The position numbers were made by a program, and so were the translations under genes. From a virus, in IMG/VR virus record IMGVR_UViG_3300028422_000919, positions 124,001 through 188,000 of that record: a stretch of 64,000 nucleotides of DNA. The stretch is one strand, 5' to 3'. Under the pieces are notes generated by a model. The model worked only from the letters and a program-made list of their open reading frames with translations. It was not told the DNA's origin and searched no databases. Shown piece by piece: positions 12,814 through 49,513 of this stretch (positions are counted from its first letter, which is position 1; each line of letters begins with the position of its first letter).

Positions 12814-12860
12814 GCTGTTCCGAGCTGCAATGGTGGCGACCGAACAAGAGGCCACGTTTG

Positions 12861-14943: not shown

Positions 14944-14949
14944 AATGGA

Positions 14950-15903: not shown

Positions 15904-16429
15904 GAACATCTTCCTCCACTGAGTCGAAGACCTGACTGAAACCCTCCCAGAGAACGCCAACGTGCGGCTTCCGCAGCATGTCCACAGGGTCCTCTTCAGG
16001 ATAGGCTTTCAGAACCTTCGCCGCCATCCCGGCCTTGAAGGCCCAGATCAGGTGGCGCTCGGTCAACAGCCAAGCCAGGACTCGTTTTTGCACCCCTTTT
16101 CGGGGTTCTCCGTTGGCCTCATAGTGGGCCAGTGTCTTGTTCAGCAGCTCTTCCGGCTGGTAGAGCCGTCCTGTATACAGCTCTGGGAACAGAGGTGTCC
16201 AGTTCCCTTCCTGGTAGTCCGAGGCCAAGTAGTTGGCTCCGTGGGCCAGCCAGTACACGTATTCGGGCTCGGGGAGGAGCTGGTCGAGGTTCGGCACCTG
16301 AGAGGGCTGGTAGCCTCCCTGGCGCCTCTTCGCCTCCAGCTTGGCCCTGACCTCCCGGCGTCGGTGAGTGTCCCTGAGAGCCCTTTCCTGACGCTTCTTG
16401 GTGGCATTCCTCTGCTTGTTCTTCGCCAT
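15803..16429 (-). CDS. Hypothetical protein, basic N-terminus and acidic C-terminus, 208 aa
   Basis: Not recognised. The first 35 residues are extremely basic (NATKKRQERALRDTHRRREV), a middle helical region follows, and the last 40 residues are acidic (DAHDPDSADADRLPEPSDGD). About 100 bases of its 3' end overlap, in a different frame, the signal peptide and linker of the lipoprotein gene, an arrangement seen in spanin pairs, although no membrane segment is evident here. ATG 16429 overlaps the stop of tmk. Confidence 0.7.
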   Translation of the reverse strand: MAKNKQRNATKKRQERALRDTHRRREVRAKLEAKRRQGGYQPSQVPNLDQLLPEPEYVYWLAHGANYLASDYQEGNWTPLFPELYTGRLYQPEELLNKTLAHYEANGEPRKGVQKRVLAWLLTERHLIWAFKAGMAAKVLKAYPEEDPVDMLRKPHVGVLWEGFSQVFDSVEEDVHAEDAHDPDSADADRLPEPSDGDHATTPGGGDS

Positions 16430-27683: not shown

Positions 27684-27716
27684 ATAGTAGGTCCTCACAT
27701 TCAGTCTCAGAAAGGG

Positions 27717-34385: not shown

Positions 34386-34402
34386 TACTTGACGGAACGC
34401 AG

Positions 34403-34477
34403 TGCGCCCGGGGGGACTCGAACCCCCGCATCACCAAGTTTTAGAGACTCGGGCTCTAACCTCTGAGCTACGGGCGC
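34403..34477 (-). tRNA. tRNA with anticodon CUA (amber-reading, suppressor type)
   Basis: A complete cloverleaf: acceptor GCGCCCG/CGGGCGC, D arm GCTC/GAGC, T arm GGGGG-TTCGAGT-CCCCC, discriminator A, no encoded CCA. The anticodon stem CGAGT/ACTTG (one G-U pair, extended by C26-G44) encloses a seven-base loop CTCTAAA, which puts C-T-A at positions 34-36 after T33, so it reads UAG. The variable region is seven bases, longer than usual. It has its own promoter (34516-34542) and is isolated from other tRNAs. The charged amino acid cannot be read from the sequence. About a quarter of genes in the window end in TAG. Confidence 0.82.
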
Positions 34478-34656: not shown

Positions 34657-35085
34657 TCAGGTGGGCTCTAGGCGGGGGAGTAGCACCACTCCCCCCCAGT
34701 ACCTCTTCATGGTGCGGAGGGCCGCCTCAGACAGAGGTTTCGCCACGTAGCTGTTCGCTCCCCCCTGATACCCTCGAAGGATGTCCGTATCGGACTTGCT
34801 GGCCGTCATGACGACCACGGGGATATGGCTCAACAGAGGGTCCTTGCGGATCTGGGCAAGAGCCTCATGTCCCCCCATCCTTGGCATCTTCAAATCCAGT
34901 AGGATCATGTCGGGCAGGGTTTTAGAGGGGTCCCTCAGCCTCTCCAGCAATTCCACTCCATCCTTGACCCTCTCCAGCTTGTTCGGACTCTGGCACTCGT
35001 CGAAGCTGTCAGCTATGAGCATCCAGTCTTCATCGTCATCTTCGGCAAAAAGAAGCAGCGGGTTGCGTTTTGAAGCTGTGAGCAT
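34657..35085 (-). CDS. Response regulator, single receiver domain
   Basis: A free-standing REC domain of 142 residues of the Rcp1 type. The acidic pocket (FAEDDDEDWML), phosphoacceptor Asp (ILLDLKMPRMGG), Thr (VVMTASKSD) and Lys (YVAKPLSE) are present, so it should be phosphorylated. There is no output domain. The ATG at 35085 is chosen over a longer start at 35118 that overlaps the kinase gene. It lies four bases downstream of a histidine kinase gene and is its likely partner. Confidence 0.92.
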   Translation of the reverse strand: MLTASKRNPLLLFAEDDDEDWMLIADSFDECQSPNKLERVKDGVELLERLRDPSKTLPDMILLDLKMPRMGGHEALAQIRKDPLLSHIPVVVMTASKSDTDILRGYQGGANSYVAKPLSEAALRTMKRYWGGVVLLPRLEPT

Positions 35086-35089
35086 GGGA

Positions 35090-36253
35090 TCAATCCACCT
35101 TTCTCTTTGGGAGGCCAACGTGGAACGTGGCCCCTTCTCCGGGCATAGCCTCGCAGTCGATCCAGCCTTGGTGACGATCTAGAATCTTCTTCACCAGTGC
35201 CAGACCGATGCCCGTGCCCGGATAGTCAAACCGGGTGTGAAGCCTCTCGAAGAGCTGGAACACCTTGTCTTTGAATGCCATGTCGAACCCGATCCCGTTG
35301 TCCGACACTGAAATCACCCAGTCCTCGTCGGTCTCCTGGGCGGTGAACTGGATCAAGGGCACCCTGTCGGGGTGCCGGAACTTGATGCTGTTGCTGATCA
35401 GGTTCTGAAGCACGGTCCGCATCTGGTAGCGGTCTGCCCAGACGGTAGGTAGGTCCTGTGCCAAAACCCGGGCATTGGCCTGTTCGATGGGGATGGCCAG
35501 GTCTTCCAGAATGCTGCGGAGGATCTTGTTGAGGTCCACTGCCTCAAAGGGGTCTTCCAGCCTCCCCACCCGGCTGTAGGACAGGAGGTCATCCATCAAC
35601 GACTGCATGCGCTCCGTGGCGTTCAACATCACGTCGATATATGACTGCCCCTTGTCGTCCAGCACTTCGGCGTACTTCTCCTTGAGCCTTTGGCCGAAGG
35701 CCCTCACTTTGAGCAGGGGTTCTCGGAGGTCATGGCTGGCAGCGTAAGCGAACTGACGTAGCTCATCGTTGGACAGTTGAAGCTCTTCCGTCCGGGCCCT
35801 CACTAGAGCTTCCAAATCCTGGACATTCCCTCGATGCTCCGTCACATCCCGTACCAGGACTAGGCACTCGTCCTCATGACTGCGGGCGAACCGAGCCTCG
35901 AACACGGAATTAGGATGATTGGGGACCTTGAACTCCCAGGTGATTACCTCTCCAGTGTCCATCGCTTGGAGGGCTTTATGCAGGGTGGCGTTTGCGAATT
36001 CCGGCCTGCCTACATCGAGAACCCGCCGGCCGATAACGTTCTGGTGATCCGCCAAGGGGGAGGCATTCAGCCCCGGCGCCATGTCGGCATAGAACCCTTC
36101 TCGGGTGATGATGCAGATCAGGTCGGGAGAGGCAATGCGGAGGGCATCCAGACGACCGGGATCATTGACTCGGCCGTAAGAGGGATCCTGCTGGCACCGA
36201 TTCAGAAACGGACAGCTCTTGCCCTGCAGGCACCAGTCGGGAGAACTGGACAT
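35090..36253 (-). CDS. Soluble PAS histidine kinase
   Basis: A full transmitter in 387 residues: a PAS-like sensor (about residues 40-145) after a Cys-rich N-terminus (WCLQGKSCPFLNRC), the H-box AASHDLREPLLKVRAFG, the N-box LQNLISNSIKFRH, the G1 box VSDNGIGFDM, the F box VFQLFERLHTRF and G2 box PGTGIGLALVKK. Nothing essential is missing, so it should autophosphorylate. It has no membrane helix, so the signal is probably cytoplasmic; the cysteines could bind metal or sense redox state. It is close to phytochrome-type kinases. It is encoded between two receiver proteins, one with a membrane helix. Confidence 0.93.
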   Translation of the reverse strand: MSSSPDWCLQGKSCPFLNRCQQDPSYGRVNDPGRLDALRIASPDLICIITREGFYADMAPGLNASPLADHQNVIGRRVLDVGRPEFANATLHKALQAMDTGEVITWEFKVPNHPNSVFEARFARSHEDECLVLVRDVTEHRGNVQDLEALVRARTEELQLSNDELRQFAYAASHDLREPLLKVRAFGQRLKEKYAEVLDDKGQSYIDVMLNATERMQSLMDDLLSYSRVGRLEDPFEAVDLNKILRSILEDLAIPIEQANARVLAQDLPTVWADRYQMRTVLQNLISNSIKFRHPDRVPLIQFTAQETDEDWVISVSDNGIGFDMAFKDKVFQLFERLHTRFDYPGTGIGLALVKKILDRHQGWIDCEAMPGEGATFHVGLPKRKVD

Positions 36254-36257
36254 GCCC

Positions 36258-37013
36258 TCACCCTACACTCTTGAGCGCCCGGATGGCTTCGACATCCACC
36301 ACCTGGACCAGGAGGGTTAGAAGAACCACGATGGTGATCAAACCCAGGAACAACATAACCGAAGCGACAGGGTGCAATGTGACCCATTCGGCCGTGTCCC
36401 GGACCCTATCCCAAGGGGTCTTCTTGATATTCTTGAGGATCTCTTCCTTTTGCTGGTCCAGCTTGACATCCAAGCGGCCGAACCCCTCTTTGAACTCGGA
36501 CCTCAGCTCACTTAGCTGAAAGGCAGTGCTGGTCTGAGCGGACGCACCCTCTCGGGTAAGGGATACTAGCTCCTGAACCTGGAGACCCACCCCTCCTGAT
36601 TCCGAGCCGTTTCGGATCTGCCTCTCATGTAGCCCGATGGCGTACAGGCAGGTCCGCTCCAGGAGGTCAGACGAGAAAGTCCCCTTCTCCAAGAATTCCG
36701 CCACCCCCGCCTCCAGAGCTTCATCCTGGAGACGGCGGTCCCCGTGGCTGGTGATAAGCACCACGGGGATGTGAAAATGCAGTCGCACCATCTCGGACAG
36801 CAGATCCATTCCGGACTGGTCGGGGAGACGATAGTCAAGGAGCATCACGTCGTAGCGGTGCTTCTTGACCTTCTCCAGGGCGGCGGCGGCGGTTTCGACG
36901 GCATCCACGCCAAACTTGGCCCGCTTGGAGTCATCGAGCAGGTCGATGACCAGCCGGGCGTCGTCCCGGTCGTCCTCAACCAACAGCACTCGAACAGTTG
37001 CGGGCGGGGGCAT
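36258..37013 (-). CDS. Membrane-anchored response regulator, receiver plus C-terminal helix
   Basis: An N-terminal REC domain (about residues 8-125): LLVEDDRDDARLV, MLLDYRLPDQSGMD, VVLITSHGD and EFLEKGTFS carry the conserved Asp, Thr/Ser and Lys. A coiled coil follows (EFKEGFGRLDVKLDQQKEE), and then a C-terminal membrane helix (VASVMLFLGLITIVVLLTLL). No known output domain is present. The regulator is therefore placed at the membrane, an unusual architecture. ATG 37013 has GGAGG eight bases upstream. It is the first gene of the three-gene two-component operon. Confidence 0.88.
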   Translation of the reverse strand: MPPPATVRVLLVEDDRDDARLVIDLLDDSKRAKFGVDAVETAAAALEKVKKHRYDVMLLDYRLPDQSGMDLLSEMVRLHFHIPVVLITSHGDRRLQDEALEAGVAEFLEKGTFSSDLLERTCLYAIGLHERQIRNGSESGGVGLQVQELVSLTREGASAQTSTAFQLSELRSEFKEGFGRLDVKLDQQKEEILKNIKKTPWDRVRDTAEWVTLHPVASVMLFLGLITIVVLLTLLVQVVDVEAIRALKSVG

Positions 37014-37160
37014 GTCTCGAACCTCCAAAAACAGCAGGACCCTCCTAAGTTGGGGCCGCTACCACGTATGGATTATCGAGCATCTACCATTCTCGGGGCC
37101 GACTTCACGATAGTGGTCCCTAGTCCCCCATCTTCTGGCCAGTGTTGTGATCCCTCACAG

Positions 37161-37478
37161 CTATTTCCGCAGCACGAGATCGAGAGATTCCTCAGTCAGA
37201 TCATCTCTACAGACAAGGTTCTGAAGCTCTCGACAGAGCCGGCGCCACCAATAGATGCGATCCCGATCCCCATAATCGCACATCCCCACGTCAATACGGG
37301 GGGACCCTTTCCGGCGTTTCCTGCAGTTGCAGTACCATACGGTACTCTTTTTGAGGCGACCGGGCTCTTCTGCCCGGAAGTTGGTCCCGTAGGCCACCCG
37401 AGTCCAGTCCCGTACTCGGCGTTCACAGATGCGAAGGGTGGCAGCCCTCCGGGCTGCTCTCTTTGATGTCTCTTCCAT
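37161..37478 (-). CDS. Basic hypothetical protein, 105 aa
   Basis: Not recognised. Arg/Cys-rich, with TVWYCNCRKRRKGS and DVGMCDYGDRDRIYWWRR, possibly a zinc-dependent nucleic-acid binder. ATG 37478 has GGAG upstream. It ends in TAG. Confidence 0.6.
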   Translation of the reverse strand: MEETSKRAARRAATLRICERRVRDWTRVAYGTNFRAEEPGRLKKSTVWYCNCRKRRKGSPRIDVGMCDYGDRDRIYWWRRLCRELQNLVCRDDLTEESLDLVLRK

Positions 37479-37574
37479 TGTTCTTCTCCGCATGCGGGCG
37501 CTACCCGCCCGGGTATGTTGGGATGCGGGGAGAGGGGTGAAGATGCTGGTCATGGACTTCTCTGTTCGGGTCAG

Positions 37575-37814
37575 TCAGCCGTTGGTCTCCAGGAGGGAGA
37601 TCAAGCCCGCCTTGTTCAGTTTGGAGTAGCCGGAGAGACCCTTGTCTCTGGCGGTGGCCTTCAGCTCTGGCATGGTCATTGACTCGAACCCGCCGTCCAC
37701 AGGCTTCGCCTTGGGCTTGGGGGGAGGGCCGATCGGAAGCTGGATGCCTGGACGTTCGGATCCGGGCCGCTGCTCCCGCCTGAGTTGTTCAAGATGTTCA
37801 GTCACCCAACACAT
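37575..37814 (-). CDS. Small protein with Rho_N/SAP-like C-terminal domain
   Basis: The last 38 residues (MPELKATARDKGLSGYSKLN and KAGLISLLE) match the helix-extended-loop-helix of Rho N-terminal and SAP domains, which bind RNA or DNA. The N-terminal half is Arg/Pro-rich. ATG 37814 follows AAAGGAG. Its promoter motif ends 32 bases upstream. Confidence 0.65.
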   Translation of the reverse strand: MCWVTEHLEQLRREQRPGSERPGIQLPIGPPPKPKAKPVDGGFESMTMPELKATARDKGLSGYSKLNKAGLISLLETNG

Positions 37815-37845
37815 AGGGAATGCTCCTTTGCCGGTTCTTCCGCAT

Positions 37846-37871
37846 CTACTCATTCCAACACTGCTGTTACT
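37846..37871 (-). promoter_or_regulatory. Phage promoter motif, AGTAAC-N15-AGTAG
   Basis: AGTAAC at 37866-37871 and AGTAG at 37846-37850 on the minus strand, upstream of the Rho_N-like gene. Confidence 0.6.
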
Positions 37872-37931
37872 CCATGATTGCATAACCCTGGAGGCCTATC
37901 CAGGTAACAGTCGGTTTCCGGGCCAACGGAA

Positions 37932-38031
37932 CCCATCGCCTCCGCAGGGGGTGGGTGGACTGCGGGGGCGGTCTCTGCCAGGTCACCGACCGCCCCGCTT
38001 CTTCGCAGGAAGCGGCCCAGATTGCGATGGG
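37932..38031 (+). other. Multi-stem structured element between divergent promoters
   Basis: An outer stem CCCATCGC (37932-37939) and GCGATGGG (38024-38031) encloses three adjacent hairpins: CCGCA/TGCGG, GGGCGGTC/GACCGCCC (37966-37973 with 37988-37995) and CGCTTC/GAAGCG with a seven-base loop TTCGCAG. The arrangement looks like a four-way junction and the region holds no protein gene. It could be a small RNA, a tRNA-like fold or an operator. The strand is not known and is given arbitrarily as plus. Confidence 0.35.
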
Positions 38032-38052
38032 GAAAGTGTTGTCGTAGGGACA

Positions 38053-38079
38053 GGTAACACCTTCCCCCCCCGCAAGTAG
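38053..38079 (+). promoter_or_regulatory. Phage promoter motif, GGTAAC-N16-AGTAG
   Basis: GGTAAC at 38053-38058 and AGTAG at 38075-38079 on the plus strand, 30 bases before the gene at 38110. Confidence 0.6.
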
Positions 38080-38109
38080 GGGATGCAGGACGAGCGAAGG
38101 AGAAACACA

Positions 38110-38532
38110 TTGAAGACCGACAACAAGATCCACACCACCTTGGCCGGGAACTTTGGAGCCAACTGCTCCGCCATCATGAGTGAGCAGGCCCCCTGCACCT
38201 TCGGGTTTGGGACCCTGTACAACTCGGACACCGAGTTCGGCAAACGGTACCTGGGCGTGGTGGTGGAATGCAAGATCCTCCCCAAGGACGAGCGGCGGCG
38301 CCCGGAGGACCTGCCGGAGAACTACACCCTCGCCGGGGTCACGGAGAAGTCGTGGGACATCTGGGACAACGTGTGGCTCAAGGTCCAAACCCACGCCGCC
38401 AACGGCGTGACCTCCCAGACCAAGTGGGTCTGGTGTGGGAACCGGCATGGCGGGGTCCAGGAGTACGCCAAGGTCGTTGCCCCGGTCCTGGCCGCCCTGG
38501 CCGTCCAGGAGTCCCGGGAGTCCGCTGAGTGA
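38110..38532 (+). CDS. Hypothetical protein, 140 aa (TTG start)
   Basis: Not recognised. The TTG at 38110 lies seven bases after AAGGAG and gives a protein that begins at the next methionine-free stretch (LKTDNKIHTTLAGNFGANCS); no ATG fits the leader. The protein has strand and helix segments with a Cys near the start. It is coupled to the small gene downstream. Confidence 0.6.
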   Translation: MKTDNKIHTTLAGNFGANCSAIMSEQAPCTFGFGTLYNSDTEFGKRYLGVVVECKILPKDERRRPEDLPENYTLAGVTEKSWDIWDNVWLKVQTHAANGVTSQTKWVWCGNRHGGVQEYAKVVAPVLAALAVQESRESAE

Positions 38533-38720
38533 CTCTTCCCCCGACCACTTGGGTCATGTCCCTCCGGCCTCGCCGGGGGGACACATACGAGGTTGCCCTG
38601 AAAGACTCTGGGCTGCAAGCCAATGTCCTTGCCTACCTCCAGACAGAGTTGGCTTCCCAGCCCGCCCTAGCCCTCTTTACAGCCGACCTGGCGGTCGAAG
38701 GACCCGATGCCGATGTGTGA
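38529..38720 (+). CDS. Small hypothetical protein, 63 aa
   Basis: Not recognised. The GTG at 38529 overlaps the stop of the gene before (GTGA). The C-terminal helix is LQANVLAYLQTELASQ. Its 3' end overlaps the next gene. The support is mainly positional. Confidence 0.4.
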   Translation: MTLPPTTWVMSLRPRRGDTYEVALKDSGLQANVLAYLQTELASQPALALFTADLAVEGPDADV

Positions 38721-39522
38721 CGAAAGCGACAAGAACGCCACCCCCGACGAGATCACCGTGGATGAGGGCTCGACTAGCCTGGACGACGTGTACATCTCCA
38801 CGGCACGACTCGTGGAGGACCTGTTCGTCGAGAACGACCGGATGACCCAGCTTCTGCACATCTACGAAGAAGCACGAGACAGCAGGTACGGCTGGTTCGA
38901 GACCGTGTACGAGATGATGGAGGCTCTGGGTTACCGCCGGGAGGCCCAGGACAACACGTACAACAACCCCAACGATCTCGATGACGACTTCGTGTACGAG
39001 GTCTGGGTGTCCCCCGACTGGAAAGGCGATTGGATCTACCGCACCGAGATGAACGATGACGGCTACATCCCGGAACCTGATCACCGCCCCGAGTGGGCTA
39101 AGCCCATCCTGGACGAGATGGACGAAGACGGAAACGAGACCCTGCCTCAACTGGTGGTGGTCTGCCACTACCACATCGGGGGGGACTCCAGGTACGAGGG
39201 CAACTACAACAGCCCGGTGCTGGGCTACTTCGAGGGCGACTACACGGTGCCCTTCGACCTGTGCCTCCAGTGGCATCTGGAGCCCTGCGAAGAAGACGAC
39301 GACGAAGCCGCCCAGTTCTTCGCCCAAAATGCCAACGAGGGGGGCTACCTGGACAGTAGTGAGGCCACCTACCATCTGGAGTCCAAGTACGGCATCGAGG
39401 TCGTCGTGGACGAAGACGGGAACTCAGTCCCGTTCAACCCGGAAAAGCGGGCATTCCTGGTCCAGAACGAGAACGGGCAGCGGTTCTGGGCGTACCCCGA
39501 CCGACACTATTTCGGGCAATGA
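38707..39522 (+). CDS. Large acidic hypothetical protein, 271 aa
   Basis: Not recognised. Very acidic throughout, with NPNDLDDDFVYEVWVSPDW and LEPCEEDDDEAAQFFA. It might be a DNA-mimic or anti-restriction type, but no known domain is seen. AAGGA is four bases before the ATG at 38707. It closes a unit before the next promoter motif. Confidence 0.65.
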   Translation: MPMCDESDKNATPDEITVDEGSTSLDDVYISTARLVEDLFVENDRMTQLLHIYEEARDSRYGWFETVYEMMEALGYRREAQDNTYNNPNDLDDDFVYEVWVSPDWKGDWIYRTEMNDDGYIPEPDHRPEWAKPILDEMDEDGNETLPQLVVVCHYHIGGDSRYEGNYNSPVLGYFEGDYTVPFDLCLQWHLEPCEEDDDEAAQFFAQNANEGGYLDSSEATYHLESKYGIEVVVDEDGNSVPFNPEKRAFLVQNENGQRFWAYPDRHYFGQ

Positions 39523-39524
39523 GG

Positions 39525-39550
39525 GGTAACCTGCCGTCCTCCCCGAGTAG
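39525..39550 (+). promoter_or_regulatory. Phage promoter motif, GGTAAC-N15-AGTAG
   Basis: GGTAAC at 39525-39530 and AGTAG at 39546-39550 on the plus strand. The shared leader GAACAACGGAGG lies between it and the ATG at 39575. It drives the CYTH/MBL operon. Confidence 0.7.
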
Positions 39551-39574
39551 TTGATGAGAACAACGGAGGCCACC

Positions 39575-39823
39575 ATGAACACGGAAACCACCCGTGGTGG
39601 CCTCCACCAGCCTGGCGTAGGAGTTCGATTACTTATGGCTTCCAAGTGGCCCCTTCAGATCAAAGTCGGCAAGACCCGGTTCAAGATCATGCACCCGGAA
39701 CAGGGTCGGCACCAGATCATCAACACCAAGACAGGTGAGGTGGTGGGACATCTGGTAGAGCACCAGGTGCCGTTCAACGGACTCAAGGTCGCAGCCCGGG
39801 AAGTCATCGAGCAGGTCGCATGA
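39575..39823 (+). CDS. Hypothetical protein, 82 aa
   Basis: Not recognised. A basic, mostly strand-rich protein (MASKWPLQIKVGKTRFKIMH). Its TGA overlaps the start of the CYTH gene. Confidence 0.65.
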   Translation: MNTETTRGGLHQPGVGVRLLMASKWPLQIKVGKTRFKIMHPEQGRHQIINTKTGEVVGHLVEHQVPFNGLKVAAREVIEQVA

Positions 39824-40287
39824 TGGGCATCGAGATCGAACGCAAATATCTCGTTGCCGACGACGGCTGGAAGCAGGAGCACGTCATCTCCCACCAGTCC
39901 ATTCGCCAGGGGTTCCTGTCCACGGACCCACTGCGGGTGGTCCGGGTGAGAGTTACCGAAGACCAGGGGTTCTTGACCGTCAAAGGGGCGGGCCATCTGT
40001 CCCGCCCCGAATACGAGTACGAGATCCCCACTGAGGATGCTGAAGCTCTCCTTCTGCTCTGCAAAGGGAAGATCATCCAGAAGACCCGCTGGACGCTGGT
40101 TTTCTCCGGCCGACACTGGGAGGTGGACGTATTCGAGGGCCAGCACGCAGGACTGGTCCTGGCTGAGACCGAAATGAAGGTCGAGAACGAGATCTTCAAG
40201 GTCCCTTCCTGGGCGGATCTGGATGTTACGATGTACCCCAGATACAAGAACATGAACCTCGCCTTGGAAGGGGAAGACATCCCATGA
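39820..40287 (+). CDS. CYTH-domain protein (triphosphate tunnel enzyme)
   Basis: The N-terminal EIERKYLVADDG (about residues 4-15) is the signature of CYTH enzymes, which form a tunnel binding triphosphates and Mg2+. Other charged strand motifs follow: VVRVRVTEDQGFLTVKG, RPEYEYEIPTEDAE and KTRWTLVFSGRHWEVDVFEG. Known members are class IV adenylate cyclases, thiamine-triphosphatases and inorganic triphosphatases, which this sequence alone does not separate. The length of 155 residues matches a stand-alone CYTH. It overlaps by four bases the gene for a metallo-beta-lactamase-fold protein, suggesting that the two handle one nucleotide substrate. Confidence 0.85.
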   Translation: MMGIEIERKYLVADDGWKQEHVISHQSIRQGFLSTDPLRVVRVRVTEDQGFLTVKGAGHLSRPEYEYEIPTEDAEALLLLCKGKIIQKTRWTLVFSGRHWEVDVFEGQHAGLVLAETEMKVENEIFKVPSWADLDVTMYPRYKNMNLALEGEDIP

Positions 40288-41096
40288 GCTTGACCATCAT
40301 CTCTCTCGGTCATGGAGGGGGCGTTCCTGTCTTCCCCTACGGGACCGCCGGCAACACCAACTTCGCTCTGGTCCCTGGGCGGCACGAAGGACCCGTGGTG
40401 GGCATCCTCCGGTCCAACCCCTACTGGCTCATCGACTGCGGGCCGGAAACCTTGATGAGGATCGCAGGGACGGGACAGATCCCGGAACCCATGGTTCAGA
40501 ACCTCCAGGGGGTCATTGTCACTCACTGCCATGGGGATCATTCTGGGGGGCTCTACGGTCTGGCTTGGAGGACTCACTTCATCGAAGAGAGGAAGGTCAA
40601 CCTGGTCTACCGGGAAGAGCTGATCCCGTTTTTGGAGGATCAGCTCATCGAGATCCAGTACCTGTCCGGAGACACCCCTCGGGTGCCCTGGACCTACTAC
40701 TGGGAGACCGTCGCCTGTTCTCCCACCCGGATATGGATGGACCTAGGGGATTTCAAGATCTGCTTTTTCAAGGTGGACCACAACATCCCCGGTTTTCCCA
40801 GCTTCGGAGTCGAGGTGCAGACCGTAGAGGGGGGCAGAGCTGTCTTCAGTGGAGACAGCGCCCACCCCATCGACGCCCACCGCTTCAGTGGTGCCGACGT
40901 GGTGTTCCACGATGTGCAGTTCTACACGAGCGACCCGAGGGTAGCCGTACACTGCCCATACGAGGCCCTGGAAACCGCTGTGAGCCCCGAGTTGCGGAAA
41001 AAGGTACACCTGGCCCATACCGGCCAGAAGCCGCCGGGGGCGGCCTTAGAGGCGTTCTCCTGGGCTTCTCTTGATACGATCGTAGTGGTGGATTAG
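40284..41096 (+). CDS. Metallo-beta-lactamase-fold hydrolase, RNase Z/Apyc1-like
   Basis: The zinc-binding motif THCHGDHSGG (about residues 78-87) is clear, with further ligands in FFKVDHNIPGFPSFG, AVFSGDSAH and VFHDVQFYTSD and a final HLAHTGQKPPG. The order and the 270-residue length match the tRNase Z-like branch that includes Apyc1, a phage phosphodiesterase that degrades cyclic pyrimidine signals of the Pycsar defence. RNase Z itself and other cyclic-nucleotide phosphodiesterases are alternatives. It is coupled to the CYTH gene upstream and ends in TAG. Confidence 0.85.
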   Translation: MSLTIISLGHGGGVPVFPYGTAGNTNFALVPGRHEGPVVGILRSNPYWLIDCGPETLMRIAGTGQIPEPMVQNLQGVIVTHCHGDHSGGLYGLAWRTHFIEERKVNLVYREELIPFLEDQLIEIQYLSGDTPRVPWTYYWETVACSPTRIWMDLGDFKICFFKVDHNIPGFPSFGVEVQTVEGGRAVFSGDSAHPIDAHRFSGADVVFHDVQFYTSDPRVAVHCPYEALETAVSPELRKKVHLAHTGQKPPGAALEAFSWASLDTIVVVD

Positions 41097-42682
41097 CGGG
41101 AGGAACCCGAACGGCTATTGCTGTCGGTGGTGAGGCGCCGGCTCAGAAGGTACGTGTCGGTGTCGTGCTTGTCCGACAGGTCCTCCAAGAAGTTGATCAT
41201 TCCGACCGTGAGCACATCGAGGCGTTCACCAAGGTCCAGCACCTGCTTGATGTTCCCCTTGAAATCCTGCTCAGCAGCCAACGCCTGATCGAAATTGTCC
41301 CCAGGAATCTCATCCCACTGCTTGATCCAAAACGCCGTCCACATGGCCTGCTGCTTGGGATCCACAGCATCGACACCGTACATGTCCACCAGCTTCTCAG
41401 CCAGGCCGTCGATCTGATCGTCCATCGCCTCATACAGGCGCTGGAACAGGAGATGATCCCCGTAGTAGCCCGTCCCCGAAGCGGTCCAGTGGCAGTTGAG
41501 AATGAAGTCACGAAGGGCTCGGAGCTGACTCAGGAGGCGCATCAAAGCCAACTGGGCTGAGGCTTTGCCAGCGGCATCGGCCTTTTTTCCCGCTGCTGGG
41601 GGAACTACCTGAGTGATTCGACCGTCATTTGTCCCTACCCACAAAGGGACTTGGTGCAGAGCGGGAATGCTGGAATGCAGGTTCCTCCGTCCGACAAGCC
41701 CCTTGAAAGCCCGCAGGCCAAACCGGGTGGCCTGCCCTGAAGAAATGTCAGCGTAGATGAACCACGCCTTGTGTGGCTGGACGTAACGGAACTTGTGCTG
41801 GGCCAACTCAATGACTTTGTTGTCTTTCATCATGGAGGGGGCCAGCTCCCGAATCTGGGACATCCCGAACTTGCGCTCGAACTCCGCTAGCGCTTTCATC
41901 TCTGGGGTCTCTTCGGGCTCTGGTCCCACATCGTCGAACAAAGTGAACCCATCCAGCATGGCCCTCTTCCCTACCGGCTCGACCACCCAGTCGTCCACAT
42001 CATCGAACCTATCGAGCTGGGGGCGAACCATCGTTGCCGCCTTGTTGTCGGCGTCCTTGTCGTCCCGAGCCGTGAATTCCTTGGACCATAGCTCCTCCCC
42101 TGAGTCACTGAACAGGTAGACTCGGTACTTCCCGCCCGCCGCCGCCTGCTTGGACACCCATTTTGAAGCCAGGGAGTAGACGTAGCTCTCCACCTCATCG
42201 GTGGAAACCCCTGCCTTGTCCGCCAAGCCGTGAACCTTCGAGTCAGGCACGGCTTTCCCCCCATACTCCCTCAGGAGGGCGTGGAGCTGATCCTTCAGAT
42301 CCTTAGGGATGGCGGCCTTCTTGTCGCACTTGCCGGCCTCCATCCTCTCCAGCTTATCGTAGTAGGCCGGATCTTCGGTGAGGTGGTCCCGAGCAATCTC
42401 CCGAGCAAGGGATGGATCATCCGTGTGCTCCATCTCGACCTTCTGCCCCTTGGCAACAGCTTTGGGATCGAAGTCGGAGGGCTTCTTTTTGTCAGAGAGT
42501 CCGCCAGGAATCTGGTCCTTAGCCGTTTTGAACTCGTGGGAAGGTTTCATCTTCTTGTAGATCCCCATCACATAGGCGTAGAAATCCTTGTCGGACTCTT
42601 TGCGGCCGTCATCCTTGGCAATTTCCACCGCTTTGGTCCACTTCTCTTCATCACGCCTCGTGTGGACCACGTTGCTGGGCAT
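41093..42682 (-). CDS. Fusion of DUF5661-type and ferritin-like domains, 529 aa
   Basis: The N-terminal third holds HTDDPSLAREIARDHLTEDP and YYDKLERMEAGK, the hallmark of DUF5661 proteins found in virions and phage genomes. The C-terminal 170 residues contain NCHWTASGTGYYGDHLLFQ and EAMDDQIDGLAEKLVDMYG, the four-helix ferritin/Dps-like pattern with His, Asp and Glu metal ligands. The middle has strand-rich regions with no assigned fold. It may be a structural or DNA-protecting protein. The ATG at 42682 overlaps the TAA of the upstream gene. Confidence 0.75.
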   Translation of the reverse strand: MPSNVVHTRRDEEKWTKAVEIAKDDGRKESDKDFYAYVMGIYKKMKPSHEFKTAKDQIPGGLSDKKKPSDFDPKAVAKGQKVEMEHTDDPSLAREIARDHLTEDPAYYDKLERMEAGKCDKKAAIPKDLKDQLHALLREYGGKAVPDSKVHGLADKAGVSTDEVESYVYSLASKWVSKQAAAGGKYRVYLFSDSGEELWSKEFTARDDKDADNKAATMVRPQLDRFDDVDDWVVEPVGKRAMLDGFTLFDDVGPEPEETPEMKALAEFERKFGMSQIRELAPSMMKDNKVIELAQHKFRYVQPHKAWFIYADISSGQATRFGLRAFKGLVGRRNLHSSIPALHQVPLWVGTNDGRITQVVPPAAGKKADAAGKASAQLALMRLLSQLRALRDFILNCHWTASGTGYYGDHLLFQRLYEAMDDQIDGLAEKLVDMYGVDAVDPKQQAMWTAFWIKQWDEIPGDNFDQALAAEQDFKGNIKQVLDLGERLDVLTVGMINFLEDLSDKHDTDTYLLSRRLTTDSNSRSGSSR

Positions 42683-43956
42683 TAGCGGATCTCCTTGTAT
42701 GTGAGGGTCGACAGGGCCTCTCCGGACCCCGTCACCAATCGGGCACACACCCACAACTCATCGGGCGTACCGTCATAGGCCGAAACCACAGGCACAGATT
42801 CGATTAGAGTACCCGAAACAGCATTGCCACGGGACTGAGCTCCCCCCCCAAGCACCCCGGAGCTGAGAACTAGAGAGCGGGCCCCATTGGGCAATCCGCT
42901 CCCGTTTACCCCCACCGCAATCTGGCTGCGGCTGTACTGGGCAATGGAATCCGCCCCTGGGACATCTGCCCAGACGGCAGCTCCTGTCCCACCGGGATTT
43001 AGCACCAAGCACCACAACAGGGCTTCGGTGTCCAGGTTGATGAAGCTATGCTCCAGAGCCCGGAGAGTGGCGTGGATGTTGGCGGCTTGAAGCCGGATAC
43101 CTAGAATGGTGGTGAGAGTGGTACTGGTCGCAGCCAACCCCGTTCCAGAGTCGGGCTGAGACCAAACCGATCGTTGGGCGCCAGGCTCATCCACGGCACC
43201 TTCCCGGTTTACTGCCGAACAGATCTGCATCAACTCTGTGGGGCCCGCAGTGGCCCCGGTGTTCTCGATTTCGTAGCGGACGGGGAGCTTCGGGGAACGG
43301 ATGTAGGGGAGAGTGTTCCCCCCCTGGTTGGCATGCTTGAACTCATGGACGTAGATGATCATCCCGTCGATGTCGAAGCCCATACGGACTCGCCCAACCC
43401 CCAACCATTGGAAATCGCACACCCAAATCTGGGTCTTGGTTAGATCCAGGGTGATACCGCTAGGCCCGGTTCCGTCAAGGGGATCCATGTTCCAGGAAGA
43501 CTGAGGGATGCGTTCGTAGGTGGTGGCCCCGGAGGCAACGGACCGGATGACCATTTCAGGGTCATCGTTATCCCTCACCTCCAAATACATCCCTTCGGCC
43601 CCATTGAAGTAGCCAACCTTCTGAGTCATATTGGCCTGGGGAGGCGCCATCAAAAAAGTGGCTAGGACAAGCTGACCCTGGGCTGCACGGTAAGAATAGA
43701 ATTCTTTGGACTGTCGGACTACACGGTCTCCGGCTGCCGCCGTCACTGCCAACCGCATGGTTCCCGAGCTAGGATGATATGTAGCCGTTCCGGCCCCCGC
43801 CACAGTGCCGTCCCAATACAGAGTACGATCTGCCGTGTCAAACAACGTCGAGAACTGGAGATGAGGATAGCTAACCCTCACCCGACTGAACGGGTCCAGG
43901 TTGGGGCCGTCAGAAATACCCACGTCCTCGGGGAAAGTGCTACCGGGATAACTCAT
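42682..43956 (-). CDS. Tail-appendage-like structural protein, 424 aa
   Basis: Strand-rich with Gly/Thr repeats, few charges in the middle and aromatic clusters (YSYRAAQGQLVLATF, VWVCDFQWLGVGRVRMGF-type). No exact family is recognised. The composition and its overlap with the next structural-looking gene suggest a virion appendage or baseplate protein. ATG 43956 overlaps the TGA of the upstream gene. Confidence 0.6.
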   Translation of the reverse strand: MSYPGSTFPEDVGISDGPNLDPFSRVRVSYPHLQFSTLFDTADRTLYWDGTVAGAGTATYHPSSGTMRLAVTAAAGDRVVRQSKEFYSYRAAQGQLVLATFLMAPPQANMTQKVGYFNGAEGMYLEVRDNDDPEMVIRSVASGATTYERIPQSSWNMDPLDGTGPSGITLDLTKTQIWVCDFQWLGVGRVRMGFDIDGMIIYVHEFKHANQGGNTLPYIRSPKLPVRYEIENTGATAGPTELMQICSAVNREGAVDEPGAQRSVWSQPDSGTGLAATSTTLTTILGIRLQAANIHATLRALEHSFINLDTEALLWCLVLNPGGTGAAVWADVPGADSIAQYSRSQIAVGVNGSGLPNGARSLVLSSGVLGGGAQSRGNAVSGTLIESVPVVSAYDGTPDELWVCARLVTGSGEALSTLTYKEIR

Positions 43957-44651
43957 GCCAGACTCCACTCAGTGCCGGAGAACACGAACTTGAGGGCTGC
44001 GTAGTTTCCGTTGATGACGATGCTACCAGCACCGTCAATAGTTTCTGCCCCGTCTGCGTTGATGGTGATGTTGTTGACCGTTGCGGTCCCGGTTTTGTCC
44101 TTGACAGTCACCACCCCAGTCGTATGGGTAGCTCCCGCAGGGAGGTTGACCACGAAAGGGACGGGGATTGCGGGATTGACCAGCACATACTCGTCCCCCA
44201 CCGCTACAGCATATGGGGTAACCAGAGCTTCCACGATGCTGGGGGACCCGGGGCTGAACGACTGATTCTCCCACCGGGAATGAGCGGCGCTGTATCGCAG
44301 GAACTGACCATCCGCAAGGGCAAGGGGGTACTGAACGTCTCCCAAATCCTCCAACAGGATCTCAGACGTGAGGGCCGACCCTAGGATGAACTGAGCGCTG
44401 ATCTCTCCCTGGTCGCATAGGCGGCGGATATCCCCAGACTCGAACGATCTGGCAACTGCTGTGCCGTAAGTCAGATCGATGGACCCACCGGCAGGGACGT
44501 AGAAGGGTTCTGGGGAGAGACCCCGGATCTCGGCAGCGGCCCGCAGGTCATCAAGCAGCAAGGAACTGCCCCGCACCGTACCTGCAAGGTACGGAGGGCT
44601 CGGCAGGGTCTTCCCAAGATGGATGAGCCGGAGTTGAATGCCTTCGGCCAT
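43953..44651 (-). CDS. Structural-type protein with beta-rich C-terminus, 232 aa
   Basis: The C-terminal 90 residues have the regular small strands of tail-fibre tips (GVVTVKDKTGTATVNNITIN, GAETIDGAGSIVINGNYAAL). The N-terminal half is not recognised. GGAGG precedes the ATG at 44651. It is coupled to the structural gene downstream, which together with the DUF5661 fusion forms a three-gene unit. Confidence 0.65.
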   Translation of the reverse strand: MAEGIQLRLIHLGKTLPSPPYLAGTVRGSSLLLDDLRAAAEIRGLSPEPFYVPAGGSIDLTYGTAVARSFESGDIRRLCDQGEISAQFILGSALTSEILLEDLGDVQYPLALADGQFLRYSAAHSRWENQSFSPGSPSIVEALVTPYAVAVGDEYVLVNPAIPVPFVVNLPAGATHTTGVVTVKDKTGTATVNNITINADGAETIDGAGSIVINGNYAALKFVFSGTEWSLA

Positions 44652-44721: not shown

Positions 44722-45627
44722 TTATGCGCCGAACAACTCTCCGATGAGGTCTTCTTCGCCCACTCCCGTCCACTTGGACGGGAACTTGGAGATCAGGGCT
44801 TCCCCCAGGTTCTTGAGGTAGTCGTAGCCGTAATCCCCATTCTCGGCACATCGGGAGAGGGTGTCGGGGATGTCATTCTCGATCTCCGAGCAGAAGAACA
44901 CGGCGGGGGCGGCAATAGCCGCAGAAGTGTCCACGTCCCCTGTGAGAGACACGATGTGCTTGAGAATAGCCGAGGCACTGTCGTAGCGTTGGATCGCCCC
45001 AATGGCCGCACGAACGTGCTGAAAGCCTTTCTCCTGAATGGGAGTAACCCAGCCATCTGCCCAACCCCATCCTGGAATCAGCTCTTCGATGTACGCTCCC
45101 GCATCCGCCTTGGGGCCGATGTGGTGGTATGTGTAGTGGGTGAGCAAAGCCGAGGCGGCAGCGGCCTCCAGCCCCGCCCTGGTGGCGTGCGTGAGACACC
45201 CCTGGAGGTAAGCGGCGTCAATGACTCCCTGCTCTTCCTTGAGCAATCCCAGGACCGGAGCCCGCATAGCGGCCCCCGACTTGTCACTGTAGGGACGGAT
45301 GCCCTTCAGAAACTCGGCCGGAGTTTGGACTCTCGCCAGAAAGTCGTAGAACGCCCCGGCGTATCCCTTGCGGGGGTCCCGTCGGAATGTGCTCAAAAAA
45401 GACTGGGCGATGTCACCCAAGCTCCAGGTGGACGGGAGTGGCTGCCGAAGCATCAACTCGGCCAACGCTACCTGCATCTGGGTGTCGTCCGAATATGTCC
45501 CGGGCTTCGTCTTCCACTTGGGGTGGCTCTGGAAGGTCCGAAGGTTGTTCCTCTTGGCGACGAATTTGGGGTCGGCATACTCGAAGCCGAAACCGTATCC
45601 GTCAAAAATCGCCGTATAGTGGAGCAC
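44722..45627 (-). CDS. ADP-ribosylglycohydrolase (DraG/ARH family)
   Basis: The family removes ADP-ribose from arginine, serine or other targets with two Mg ions. The ligand motifs are intact: YSDDTQMQVALAEL (about residues 45-58) and GDVDTSAAIAAPAVF near the end, with KSGAAMRAPVLGLL between and IFDGYGFGFEYADP at the start. At 301 residues it is a full domain. The GTG start at 45627 lies after AAAGGAG, and a promoter motif with a 16-base spacer is 33 bases upstream. It can reverse the PARP-like protein encoded at 25854-27683 or a host/defence transferase. It lies beside a kinase-vWA pair. Confidence 0.92.
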   Translation of the reverse strand: MLHYTAIFDGYGFGFEYADPKFVAKRNNLRTFQSHPKWKTKPGTYSDDTQMQVALAELMLRQPLPSTWSLGDIAQSFLSTFRRDPRKGYAGAFYDFLARVQTPAEFLKGIRPYSDKSGAAMRAPVLGLLKEEQGVIDAAYLQGCLTHATRAGLEAAAASALLTHYTYHHIGPKADAGAYIEELIPGWGWADGWVTPIQEKGFQHVRAAIGAIQRYDSASAILKHIVSLTGDVDTSAAIAAPAVFFCSEIENDIPDTLSRCAENGDYGYDYLKNLGEALISKFPSKWTGVGEEDLIGELFGA

Positions 45628-45686: not shown

Positions 45687-46851
45687 GGCTGAGGTCTCTA
45701 CGGCGGGGATCCGGCGGAGGGGCGCTCGGCCCACCCGGCACCATCGAGAGGGATGCGTGAACCGTCCCCAGGTTCTCGTCAGTGTACCGGGTGCCGGCCT
45801 GACGGGCGGAGAGAGCCTGGGTGAACGTGTCGTACTGACTGGTCACCTTGGCGACCGCCCCCAACATCACATCTACTACCCGACGCTGGTCGTGCAGCGG
45901 GAGGACATGATCCGATCCCAGAACCCGATTCCAGTACCCGTCGATATCGTAAGAACAGGATTTGACATAATAGTTGTGGTCTGCAGTGTGGGCCAGAACG
46001 GTGAACACTTCCCCCTTGCGCCGGAGGCAGGAGAACGTGTCCTTAGCCGTGTCCAGCTCCTCGTCTTTGCTGATCCCGACCCCCTGCAAACAGTAGCGGC
46101 TCGCCATGCTCTCGGCACCGGCCTCGTCGGTGATAAAGAACGTGAAGACGTGTTTGGCCGACCCAGTGTCCACGGCGTGCAGGAGCCAGTGGGCGACGAT
46201 CTCCGGGCTCTCTTCACCGTCCCCCCCACCCGAGGCCTCGGTGTTCAGGGCCTCCAAATGGTCGTCGAGAAGGGGTCCGCTGGCGAAGTCGATAACCTCG
46301 ATCACGTCACCGTACTTCACATCGCCGTATGTGATGAACAGGATCTGAAGGTCATCCCCCAGGAACTTCTGGGCCTCCCCGAACATCAACGGGAGGCGAC
46401 GGAAGATCTCGGGAACCCAGGACCGGATAGACCCAGTCACATCCACGACGACCTGGATGACGGCCTTAGCCGTGCTCTTAAGCGTCTTGCCGTGGGGCCT
46501 CCGGTTGAAGGAGTGCGGCGGCACCGGGACGTGGTTATGCTGCCAAACCACAGAAGCGGCAGGCTTAGGGGCGGGCTTCGGCGGCGCCTGAACGGCAGGG
46601 CTAGGGTTCCACGCCCTGGACGCCTGGTCCTTGACAGCCTTATCCTTGGCAGCCTTGTCTTTGCACCCCCAGCACAGATCACCGCTGTAGTTCACCTCCT
46701 TGCCACAGGAGCAGCGGTAAGTAGGGGCTGGGGTGCTATAACCTCTCCGGGCTCGGCTGTAATCAGTTCTGCTGTAGATATCCTCGCTGGAGTCACTCCG
46801 ATCACGATAGTCACGTCGGTCACTGCCGCCCCATCCAAAGGATCCACTCAT
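45682..46851 (-). CDS. Zinc-ribbon and von Willebrand A-domain protein
   Basis: The N-terminal region has CSCGKEVNYSGDLCWGC, a four-Cys zinc ribbon. A Pro-rich linker leads to a vWA domain (about residues 135-330) with the MIDAS signature VVDVTGSIRSW and an FITDEAGAE segment. vWA proteins coupled to Ser/Thr kinases occur in TerY-type and other regulatory systems. Here the gene overlaps the kinase gene by four bases (ATGA). Its partners are probably the kinase and a target bound by the metal site. Confidence 0.85.
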   Translation of the reverse strand: MSGSFGWGGSDRRDYRDRSDSSEDIYSRTDYSRARRGYSTPAPTYRCSCGKEVNYSGDLCWGCKDKAAKDKAVKDQASRAWNPSPAVQAPPKPAPKPAASVVWQHNHVPVPPHSFNRRPHGKTLKSTAKAVIQVVVDVTGSIRSWVPEIFRRLPLMFGEAQKFLGDDLQILFITYGDVKYGDVIEVIDFASGPLLDDHLEALNTEASGGGDGEESPEIVAHWLLHAVDTGSAKHVFTFFITDEAGAESMASRYCLQGVGISKDEELDTAKDTFSCLRRKGEVFTVLAHTADHNYYVKSCSYDIDGYWNRVLGSDHVLPLHDQRRVVDVMLGAVAKVTSQYDTFTQALSARQAGTRYTDENLGTVHASLSMVPGGPSAPPPDPRRRDLSR

Positions 46852-47642
46852 CGGTCCCTCCACTGCTCCTCGCAGCTCTCTCGCCCCCACACATCCATAC
46901 GGATGTGGTACAGCTCTCGCCGTACATCATCCGCCGAGGGGGGTCTCTTAGCCGGGTCTCGTGCAATCATCTGCTCCAACAGATCAGCCAGGGGCTCGAC
47001 CATGTCGGAAGGCACGGTTCCCTTGTGAATGTCTCCCCCGGCCAGGGCAATACCTACCTTGCCGACGGAGTAGATGTCCGACTCAGGAAGAGGTGGGAAC
47101 CCCTGCTGGAACTCAGGAGCCATGTAGCCAGGGGTTCCCCCTTTGGCCTTCGTCTTCTCATTGGGTTCTAGCGTTGCCATACCCAGGTCTACCAGGGTGA
47201 CCTGGTGATCCTCGATGTCGAGGATGGCGTTGGCCGGCTTGATGTCGCAGTGGACGATTCCGTGCCGGCGGTGCAGATAGTCCAGAGCACCCAAGACCCG
47301 ATCCAACACCCAGCAGATGTGCTCGTCCGCCACAGGACCCCGGGTTTCCAGGTGCTTGTCTAGGGGGGTCCCCGGAATGTAGCTCAGGACCATGATCTGG
47401 CCGATGTCTCCACCCACCTCGAAGTAGTCCAACAGGCTGGGGAACTGGAAGTGGCGGAGCTTCGCCAACAGCTCCGCCTCCTGGCGGAACATCCTGGTGA
47501 ACGGATCCTTGTGGGTCTTCTCCTGTTTGATGACCACAGGAAGACCCCTGCCGAGGATACAATGCCGCCCTAGATACACGTCTCCGAAAGCACCCCCTCC
47601 GAGCTTTTTACGAATCTCCCAGCTTCCGATGACGTGTCCCAT
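46848..47642 (-). CDS. Hanks-type serine/threonine protein kinase
   Basis: A whole kinase domain in 264 residues: the Gly loop KKLGGGAFGDVYLG, lysine in VVIKQEKTH, catalytic loop IVHCDIKPANAI, the DFG-equivalent VDLGMATLE (Asp kept, Phe to Leu), and the APE region YMAPEFQQGFPP. No membrane segment or sensor is attached. It should phosphorylate the vWA partner or host proteins. The ATG at 47642 has GGGGAG upstream. It is coupled to the vWA gene, and the gene at 47740 and CoaD-CoaE precede it. Confidence 0.93.
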   Translation of the reverse strand: MGHVIGSWEIRKKLGGGAFGDVYLGRHCILGRGLPVVIKQEKTHKDPFTRMFRQEAELLAKLRHFQFPSLLDYFEVGGDIGQIMVLSYIPGTPLDKHLETRGPVADEHICWVLDRVLGALDYLHRRHGIVHCDIKPANAILDIEDHQVTLVDLGMATLEPNEKTKAKGGTPGYMAPEFQQGFPPLPESDIYSVGKVGIALAGGDIHKGTVPSDMVEPLADLLEQMIARDPAKRPPSADDVRRELYHIRMDVWGRESCEEQWRDR

Positions 47643-47739
47643 CTCAACAACACTCCCCGAACAGCTTGCCCCGCACCCTGTCGTACCCGGAATGAACCCG
47701 TTCCCATCCTCCAGACGGCGGATGGCGTGGTGACTCAGC

Positions 47740-48210
47740 TCATGGAAAGGGGGACTTGTGGGATGTCCGGAAGTGGCGAGACCACAGCTCCCGGACAACT
47801 TCTGGGGGAGCATCCGTGGCGAGGCCCTGAGGCGAACAGCCCCTCCCACCCCCGTACCCGTACACATGGTACTTGCCCCAACGACCGAGGAACACACTTG
47901 CGTCCCACCAGAAATCCCAGAGGGGAGTCCCCTCAGAGTTCAGCTCCCCCGTGTCATAGTAGCAGAGTTCCACTCCACTCTTCCCCAACTCCCGAAACGG
48001 CTCAGGGGTGTCACCCCAGGAATCGGGATCGATATACACAGCCCCCTCATCCTGCATGAGCTGCCAATCTCCGGGCCAGCAGTCGTTGCCGGAGGCGGAC
48101 TTGGCGACTGCAGGGGCCATCCTGGTGAGCTGCCCCAGCAACTCACCCACCCGGGCTTCGGCCCTCTGACGGGTGGTGCGGGGTTCAGTTCCGAAAGTGA
48201 ACGTCTTCAT
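47740..48210 (-). CDS. Hypothetical protein, 156 aa
   Basis: Not recognised. It is Trp/Gly-rich in its second half (LWDFWWDASVFLGRWGKYHV) and soluble. Its ATG overlaps the TGA of CoaD-CoaE. It lies between the CoA gene and the kinase gene. Confidence 0.65.
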   Translation of the reverse strand: MKTFTFGTEPRTTRQRAEARVGELLGQLTRMAPAVAKSASGNDCWPGDWQLMQDEGAVYIDPDSWGDTPEPFRELGKSGVELCYYDTGELNSEGTPLWDFWWDASVFLGRWGKYHVYGYGGGRGCSPQGLATDAPPEVVRELWSRHFRTSHKSPFP

Positions 48211-49421
48211 ACGTCGTCGCCGGTCGCTTTGCCGTAGTAGGCGGGCAAACTGGGCATAGCCTCGTAGAGGCATGACCGTAGGTAGGGGTACCCGAGATCG
48301 TCCCAAATGCGGAAATACGGGATAACATTCCCGAACTTCTCCCTTTCGTTGAGGATCTGGATACGTCTGATCTTCTCATCCTCTGGTAGGTGTTGCTCGT
48401 CGAAGCGAGCCTGGGTGTTGGGGTCCACACCTCTTTTTGCCAAGAGTTTGCTTTGGTCTGAGTTTCGCACTACGATCACGTTGCCGTTGACCAAAGAGGC
48501 CATGTCATTCTCGACCAGGAGAGCCCACTCCAGGATGATGACCCCCGCCTTGTCCGCCAACCACTCCCGCATTTTCCGGAGGACGTGAGGCTTGGTCCTC
48601 GTGTGGATCTGCTTGAGCATGTCCGGGGTGATCTCCCCGCTAGAGATCTTGGCCTTGAGCACAGCCGTGTTGACATTGTCTCCAAGGGGCATCAACACAT
48701 CCTTGCCCACGAGGTCAGCGATATCGTCCCGGACCTTCTGAGCGCCTGGCGTGTCCTCCTCGTATAGGTCACGGATGCACTTATCGAGGTTCAGGTGGTG
48801 GGCGGGGATGCCGTCGAGCCTGAGCCTCTTCTCCAGCTCCTTCGCCACCCAGGTCTTGCCTGTCGCCACCCGACCGCAGATACCAACCATGAATTGGCGA
48901 TGCAGTTTGACCTCCAAGCGATGCTTCACTCGGAGTGGCACTAGATGACCGATATCGACGTGCCGCTGGGCCATAGCCTTGACCAAACTGGAGCTGACGT
49001 GAGCCCAGTCAGGATCCGGGTGGACGAACACCACCATGTCCTTGATGCCGGGCATGATCCGGTCGTGGTGGCCCATCTGAGACTCCTCGTAAGCACGGTC
49101 ACGAGCGTCCCTCACCCCCCGAAAAATCACGTCGATCCCCTCCCGGAGGACGACGTCCACCAGAAGGTCGTTGGACCCGATGACCCGCCATCTCCCCCGA
49201 CAATCACCCGGAAGGAAAGTCGAGAGAGCATGGGTGACATGAAGCATCCTCTCGTTCATCTCTAGGAGGTACTTGCCCGCCTTATCGTCGTTGTTTCCGA
49301 CCCAGACCACCAGCTCGTCGATGACGGGTGCCCCCGGATCGTACTTCCCGAGGCACTTCCGAATGATGTGCAGGTGCCCCCGGGTCACGGGGTCTCCCGA
49401 CAAAGCGAACAATCCACGCAC
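48207..49421 (-). CDS. Fused phosphopantetheine adenylyltransferase and dephospho-CoA kinase
   Basis: Residues about 1-195 are a PPAT (CoaD): nucleotide-binding SGDPVTRGHLHIIRKCLG, IDVIFRGVRDARDRAYEESQ and VSSSLVKAMAQRHVDIGHLV. Residues about 200-404 are a CoaE-type kinase: Walker A GICGRVATGKTWVAKELE, then VIILEWALLVENDM and LLAKRGVDPNTQ. The pair catalyses the last two steps of CoA synthesis; a fused form is known in animals (CoA synthase) but is not the usual bacterial form. The start is the GTG at 49421, placed by AAAGGAGG six bases upstream; the ATG at 49442 lies six bases from the promoter and is not used. It opens the kinase-vWA operon. Confidence 0.88.
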   Translation of the reverse strand: MRGLFALSGDPVTRGHLHIIRKCLGKYDPGAPVIDELVVWVGNNDDKAGKYLLEMNERMLHVTHALSTFLPGDCRGRWRVIGSNDLLVDVVLREGIDVIFRGVRDARDRAYEESQMGHHDRIMPGIKDMVVFVHPDPDWAHVSSSLVKAMAQRHVDIGHLVPLRVKHRLEVKLHRQFMVGICGRVATGKTWVAKELEKRLRLDGIPAHHLNLDKCIRDLYEEDTPGAQKVRDDIADLVGKDVLMPLGDNVNTAVLKAKISSGEITPDMLKQIHTRTKPHVLRKMREWLADKAGVIILEWALLVENDMASLVNGNVIVVRNSDQSKLLAKRGVDPNTQARFDEQHLPEDEKIRRIQILNEREKFGNVIPYFRIWDDLGYPYLRSCLYEAMPSLPAYYGKATGDDV

Positions 49422-49447
49422 GGAGAACCTCCTTTCGTCCATGACCC

Positions 49448-49473
49448 CTACCCGTTTTGGGTAGCTCGTTACC
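49448..49473 (-). promoter_or_regulatory. Phage promoter motif, GGTAAC-N15-GGTAG
   Basis: GGTAAC at 49468-49473 and GGTAG at 49448-49452 on the minus strand. The right block lies in an inverted repeat (CTACCCGTTTTGGGTAG on the plus strand), as at 2366. The plus-strand gene at 49514 shows no motif of its own. Confidence 0.65.
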
Positions 49474-49513
49474 CGTCCCTCGGGGGGTATGGTCCACCAC
49501 ACAGGAGGTCCCC

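Follow-up and report, generated by a model that had tools for sequence, protein, structure and literature searches.

Two adjoining genes in a large viral genome, the first for a CYTH protein (P0001) and the second for a protein of the metallo-beta-lactamase (MBL) fold (P0002), raise the question of whether a phage carries here a unit directed against Pycsar, in which one enzyme destroys cyclic mononucleotides and its neighbor removes a triphosphate precursor or mimics the signal, or whether the two proteins have some other role in the handling of nucleotides and phosphates. We approached this question through the layout of the genes, the catalytic motifs of the CYTH protein, the sequence, predicted fold and phylogeny of the MBL protein, and the conservation of the gene pair among other phages.

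Gene layout and origin of the window

The window, that is, the whole stretch of 64,000 bases that was analyzed, corresponds to bases 124001–188000 of a 402,383-base (402-kb) IMG/VR virus record, IMGVR_UViG_3300027985_000918; the G+C content of the window is 60%. Since the gene at 42682–43968 (minus strand) matches virion proteins of cyanophages, of the Puniceispirillum phage HMO-2011 and of the 440-kb Salicola phage SCTP-2, the source is taken to be a jumbo tailed phage. The genes of interest are part of a unit of at least three, a small upstream ORF followed by the CYTH and MBL genes, which are chained through ATGA overlaps (Table 1): the small ORF ends and the CYTH gene begins within one ATGA, just as the CYTH stop and the MBL start share another, and an SD-like GGAAGGGGAAG lies directly upstream of the latter overlap. 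The small ORF yielded no family match when searched against Pfam and PHROG. Both the CYTH and the MBL ORFs score as coding, with positive codon-usage scores, and their matches to PF01928 and PF12706 above the Pfam cut-offs indicate that they are more than chance ORFs. Thus, the overlap of two ORFs by four bases, as given in the preliminary description, stands, and each of the two has clear homologues. The accompanying statement that both lie under one promoter was not confirmed: a scan of 37000–41500 for promoters of the sigma-70 type, which leaves room for other phage promoter types, returned none, against an average of 1.0 in shuffled sequences. On its other side, the MBL gene is tail-to-tail with a gene on the minus strand (41093–42754), the stop bases being common to both; the product of the latter, 553 amino acids long, contains DUF5661 and a ferritin-like C-terminal part.

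Table 1. Positions of the overlapping genes within the window.
Feature	Positions	Strand	Start or stop codon	Basis
Small upstream ORF	39551-39823	+	start TTG 39551, ATG 39575 or ATG 39635	
CYTH / triphosphate tunnel metalloenzyme, 155 aa (P0001)	39820-40287	+		Pfam, PHROG, PDB, motifs
ATGA overlap, CYTH stop / MBL start	40284-40287	+		sequence
Metallo-beta-lactamase-fold phosphodiesterase-like protein, 270 aa (P0002)	40284-41096	+	stop TAG	Pfam, PDB, fold, tree

Several other features of the window deserve mention. A tRNA gene at 34402–34477 (minus strand; Rfam, 60.8 bits) has a CUA anticodon, was called tRNA-Pyl by ARAGORN and probably encodes an amber suppressor. With TAG still terminating 15 of the 68 ORFs that were picked, wholesale recoding is not indicated. 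Given that the MBL gene itself ends in TAG, some read-through, adding 63 residues, is possible in the presence of this tRNA; suppression at the TAG codon of the ORF at 14989–15960 (minus strand) would fuse it to an amidase-like ORF (13963–14961, minus strand) that follows in the same frame. A phage two-component system, in which two receiver-domain proteins flank a PAS/HisKA/HATPase histidine kinase, is encoded at 34657–37028 (minus strand). Possible writing and erasing of ADP-ribose is suggested by a protein with a PARP catalytic domain (25854–27698, minus strand) and an ADP-ribosylglycohydrolase (44722–45627, minus strand). Finally, at 46848–49571 (minus strand) a Ser/Thr protein kinase gene adjoins one whose product combines nucleotidyltransferase (CTP_transf_like) and CoaE-like domains.

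The CYTH protein has the motifs of a triphosphatase

P0001 matches the Pfam CYTH family (PF01928, E 1.6e-10, above the Pfam cut-off) and PHROG 6660 (E 2.9e-23), and its best PDB match, which extends along the whole length, is NE1496/NeuTTM (3typ and 2fbl, E 3e-18), a specific inorganic triphosphatase (PPPase) whose adenylyl cyclase activity is not significant (PMC3440374). Matches to P0001 are present in 37 annotated phage records, and CYTH triphosphatases have been reported to be widely scattered through jumbo phages (PMC7824862).

According to a structural study, activities within the CYTH superfamily are separated by three motifs (PMC8233210). P0001 has the motifs of the triphosphate tunnel metalloenzymes (TTM), namely ExExK (E5-E7-K9), RxR (R42/R44) and ExE (E116/E118), in common with the inorganic triphosphatases NeuTTM and E. 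coli YgiF, and an equivalent of NeuTTM Lys52 (K55) is kept as well. The class IV adenylyl cyclases (AC-IV), such as CyaB, are distinguished by HFxxxxExExK, by a small residue at the first Arg of RxR and by Ala, found in all AC-IV, at the second Glu of ExE (PMC8233210). P0001 belongs to the same superfamily as CyaB but has none of these three cyclase-specific motifs: only four residues precede E5, and both R42 and E118 are kept. The thiamine triphosphatase motif W/YxRxR, with W/Y two residues ahead of the first Arg (PMC8233210), is likewise absent from P0001, which reads V40-x-R42-x-R44. Because the TTM motifs are present and the signatures of both AC-IV and thiamine triphosphatase are absent, P0001 is, judged by its motifs, probably a TTM-type triphosphatase. 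This agrees with one of the two activities that had been proposed for it, and both the nearest solved relatives and the published motif scheme (PMC8233210) fit; the other, synthesis of a cyclic nucleotide, and with it the idea of mimicry, fails.

One deviation from NeuTTM concerns the catalytic dyad Tyr28-Lys52 proposed for that enzyme, of which P0001 keeps the Lys (K55) and replaces the Tyr (F32), so that the dyad is incomplete. The Tyr is kept in five of the five other phage CYTH proteins that were aligned, and, with Phe32 in its place, the predicted activity of P0001 could be slow or altered. The dyad is not family-wide, however, as YgiF seems to be without the Lys (PMC3440374).

The MBL-fold protein lies on the Apyc1 side of the fold

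P0002 matches Lactamase_B_2 (PF12706, E 3.3e-13, above the Pfam cut-off), and its best sequence matches in PDB are the Apyc1 structures 7u2r (E 2.9e-7) and 7t28 (E 2.2e-6), followed by RNase Z (1y44). Among annotated phages, all 35 matches fall in Bacillus and Staphylococcus phages, SBSphiJ included, and a scan of viral contigs with the single protein found only P0002 itself. NF041851 was tried as a lead and led nowhere. In a Foldseek search with the predicted monomer (pLDDT 85), whose AlphaFold alignment was built from Apyc1-side relatives and may favor an Apyc1 match, the top four rows were Apyc1 structures (E 1e-16 to 3e-15, TM 0.70–0.81). With VIA-align, the top three were again Apyc1 (Z 26.1, 25.4 and 24.5; rmsd 2.6; 230–238 residues), ahead of Z 21.8 for YhfI and about 19–20 for RNase Z. 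Phylogenetic trees, which included relatives retrieved from contigs of viruses and bacteria, place P0002 on the Apyc1 side as opposed to the RNase Z side with support of 100/99 and 100/100. Within the Apyc1 side, P0002 is sister to all other members, and its branch is so long, at about 2 changes per column, that its exact position is unsure and the placement approximate. Taken together, sequence matches, modeled fold and trees support the view that P0002 lies on the class II phosphodiesterase/Apyc1 side of the MBL fold and not on the RNase Z side; the assignment of the second ORF to the RNase Z/Apyc1 branch in the preliminary description is, to this extent, borne out. On the same side of the fold, YhfI of Bacillus subtilis (6kns) is a class II phosphodiesterase that prefers cAMP and cGMP; it shares fold and superfamily with P0002, but its identity is 18%, its fold score is below that of Apyc1, and it was not retrieved by the P0002 sequence search at E up to 1.

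The characterized Apyc1 proteins (SBSphiJ gp147, Bsp38 7t28 and Paenibacillus 7u2r/7u2s; PMC9117128) have in common with P0002 the MBL fold, HxHxDH and the other metal ligands, a similar length, and a phage origin. The metal ligands of P0002 are complete (H81, H83, D85, H86, H166, D191 and H245, common to the Apyc1 rows), and the Apyc1-type 'FHD' (FHD..F) and 'VH' stretches are kept. In other respects the proteins differ. Identity is about 19–25%, and P0002 has an N-terminal insert (about residues 14–45) relative to Apyc1. The Pfam family for Apyc1, PF23023, matches P0002 only partially (residues 49–112) at 17.0 bits, short of the curated cut-off of 50 bits, which the phage relatives L008, L009 and L080–L082 pass. 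Apyc1 is a homodimer, with Tyr112 contributed by the opposing protomer and a specific loop that reaches into the cNMP pocket, and hydrolyzes cNMPs broadly, cCMP and cUMP included; in the SBSphiJ protein Glu74 and Tyr112 are catalytic, and Glu74 is needed for cCMP hydrolysis (PMC9117128). The Glu74 position, which falls in a gap-free part of the alignment just after HxHxDH, is occupied by Tyr91 in P0002; it is Glu in 40 of 44 Apyc1-side rows and Pro in the RNase Z rows. The counterpart of Tyr112 is less clear, as Tyr126 of P0002 aligns with it in one alignment and not in others, and the relatives have His or Gln. With the PF23023 cut-off missed and Glu74 replaced, P0002 appears to be built on the Apyc1 plan and yet cannot be filed as Apyc1, and the replacement by Tyr91 suggests that its predicted activity could be slow or altered.

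The pairing of the two genes is not conserved

Among about 75 loci with related MBL genes, CYTH turned up within 8 kb on a single contig, L013, and the same contig (L117 in the CYTH set) was the only one of 37 further CYTH-phage loci with an Apyc1-like gene within 6 kb of CYTH, the two being 1 kb apart. Because the MBL protein of L013 groups with a Staphylococcus-phage branch and resembles MBLBt2 (7fct-like), it was not counted as another instance of the pair, and conservation of the pairing was rejected. A PF23023 search of 26 whole CYTH-bearing records added two carriers, both with the Apyc1-like gene on the same strand as CYTH: a 290-kb record, in which it lies 6.3 kb from CYTH and keeps the Glu, and a 351-kb record, in which it lies 12.3 kb away and has Ser for Glu. 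We estimate the combined probability of such closeness roughly at 0.02, too weak for a claim of linkage. The reverse search of 11 MBL records for PF01928 found none, a lower bound, since PF01928 missed the CYTH gene of L013. In the 290-kb carrier, the jumbo phage L133, the Apyc1-like and CYTH genes stand on one strand within 8 kb (5875–13474), and the ORFs between them are, by our reading, KptA-like and CoaD-like, the latter matching 48207–49571 of the window. A loose co-occurrence of CYTH and Apyc1-like genes is thus possible; the tight pairing has so far been seen in the present record alone. The proposal that the two enzymes work as a pair is weakly supported, as the adjacency is not conserved.

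Possible functions of the gene pair

The interpretation that we favor, and to which we assign about an even chance, is that the two genes of this jumbo phage are coupled in translation and encode small nucleotide/phosphate hydrolases. Of the two products, P0002 would be a divergent two-metal class II phosphodiesterase from the Apyc1/YhfI side; rather than process tRNA, it would most likely open a phosphodiester in a small substrate of the nucleotide type, either a cyclic mononucleotide or some other phosphate in cyclic or diester form. The CYTH protein would be a metal-dependent triphosphatase of the TTM type, acting most likely on inorganic tripolyphosphate or on a triphosphate-bearing small molecule, and together the two proteins, both soluble, would clear nucleotide-derived signals or by-products during infection.

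A tentative alternative, to which we give a minor share of credence, is that the pair has a metabolic task outside defense, clearing tripolyphosphate together with odd cyclic or modified nucleotides, or helping to remove unmodified NTPs, as part of a rebuilding of nucleotide pools by the phage. By our reading of the sequences, assorted hydrolase-like ORFs adjoin phage CYTH genes, pyrophosphohydrolase genes occur near CYTH in a Xanthomonas phage, and the window encodes a thymidine kinase, a thymidylate kinase and the CoaE/nucleotidyltransferase protein; it has also been suggested that CYTH and MazG could degrade NTPs with unmodified bases (PMC7824862). This alternative is at odds with the action on cyclic nucleotides of the characterized members nearest to P0002.

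An anti-Pycsar role of the MBL protein is possible, but in its strict form, hydrolysis of cCMP and cUMP, as well as cAMP and cGMP, in the manner of Apyc1, which would protect the phage and leave the CYTH neighbor without direct relevance, we consider it unlikely. The nearest solved relatives and the nearest folds of P0002 are Apyc1 structures, the metal site is intact, and jumbo phages are described as enriched in anti-defense genes (PMC13282480). Against this stand the PF23023 score, the substitution at Glu74 and the length of the P0002 branch, and the Apyc1-like action attributed to the protein by the preliminary description is not supported in the form in which it was put. Distinctly improbable, in our judgment, is a two-step counter-signaling unit in which P0002, as a class II phosphodiesterase that has departed from the Apyc1 line, has Tyr91 for Glu74 and a new substrate preference, and in which the coupled triphosphatase eliminates the same nucleotide signal in its precursor or triphosphate form.

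It is very improbable that P0002 is a tRNase Z or RNase BN that matures phage RNA. The two share the MBL fold and the metal motif, the RNase Z model TIGR02651 matches P0002 (E 5e-11), and the phage tRNA lies 6 kb away; however, that match scores 42.2 bits where the curated cut-off is 293, P0002 groups apart from RNase Z (100/99) and lacks the Pro-Gly that follows the HxHxDH block in all RNase Z rows, and its shorter middle part, with 81 residues between conserved blocks against 119 in 1y44, suggests little room for a tRNA-binding exosite arm. That the CYTH protein is a nucleotide cyclase making a decoy or regulatory cNMP, then removed by the MBL protein, is scarcely credible given the AC-IV positions described above, even though CyaB, the founding CYTH member, is a cyclase (PMC3440374).

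Implications

In the annotated phage collection, Apyc1-like genes are confined, three records excepted, to phages of Bacillota hosts. The present jumbo phage, with 60% G+C and structural genes resembling those of cyanophages, carries a divergent Apyc1-like copy and so extends the range beyond these. P0001 illustrates that the database label 'adenylate cyclase' on such CYTH proteins would mislead. P0002, in which the catalytic Glu is replaced, is a natural variant for probing other substrates of this branch, and, as Tad1 is the only anti-defense protein described in jumbo phages according to a 2026 review (PMC13282480), a tested jumbo-phage enzyme such as P0002 would be useful.
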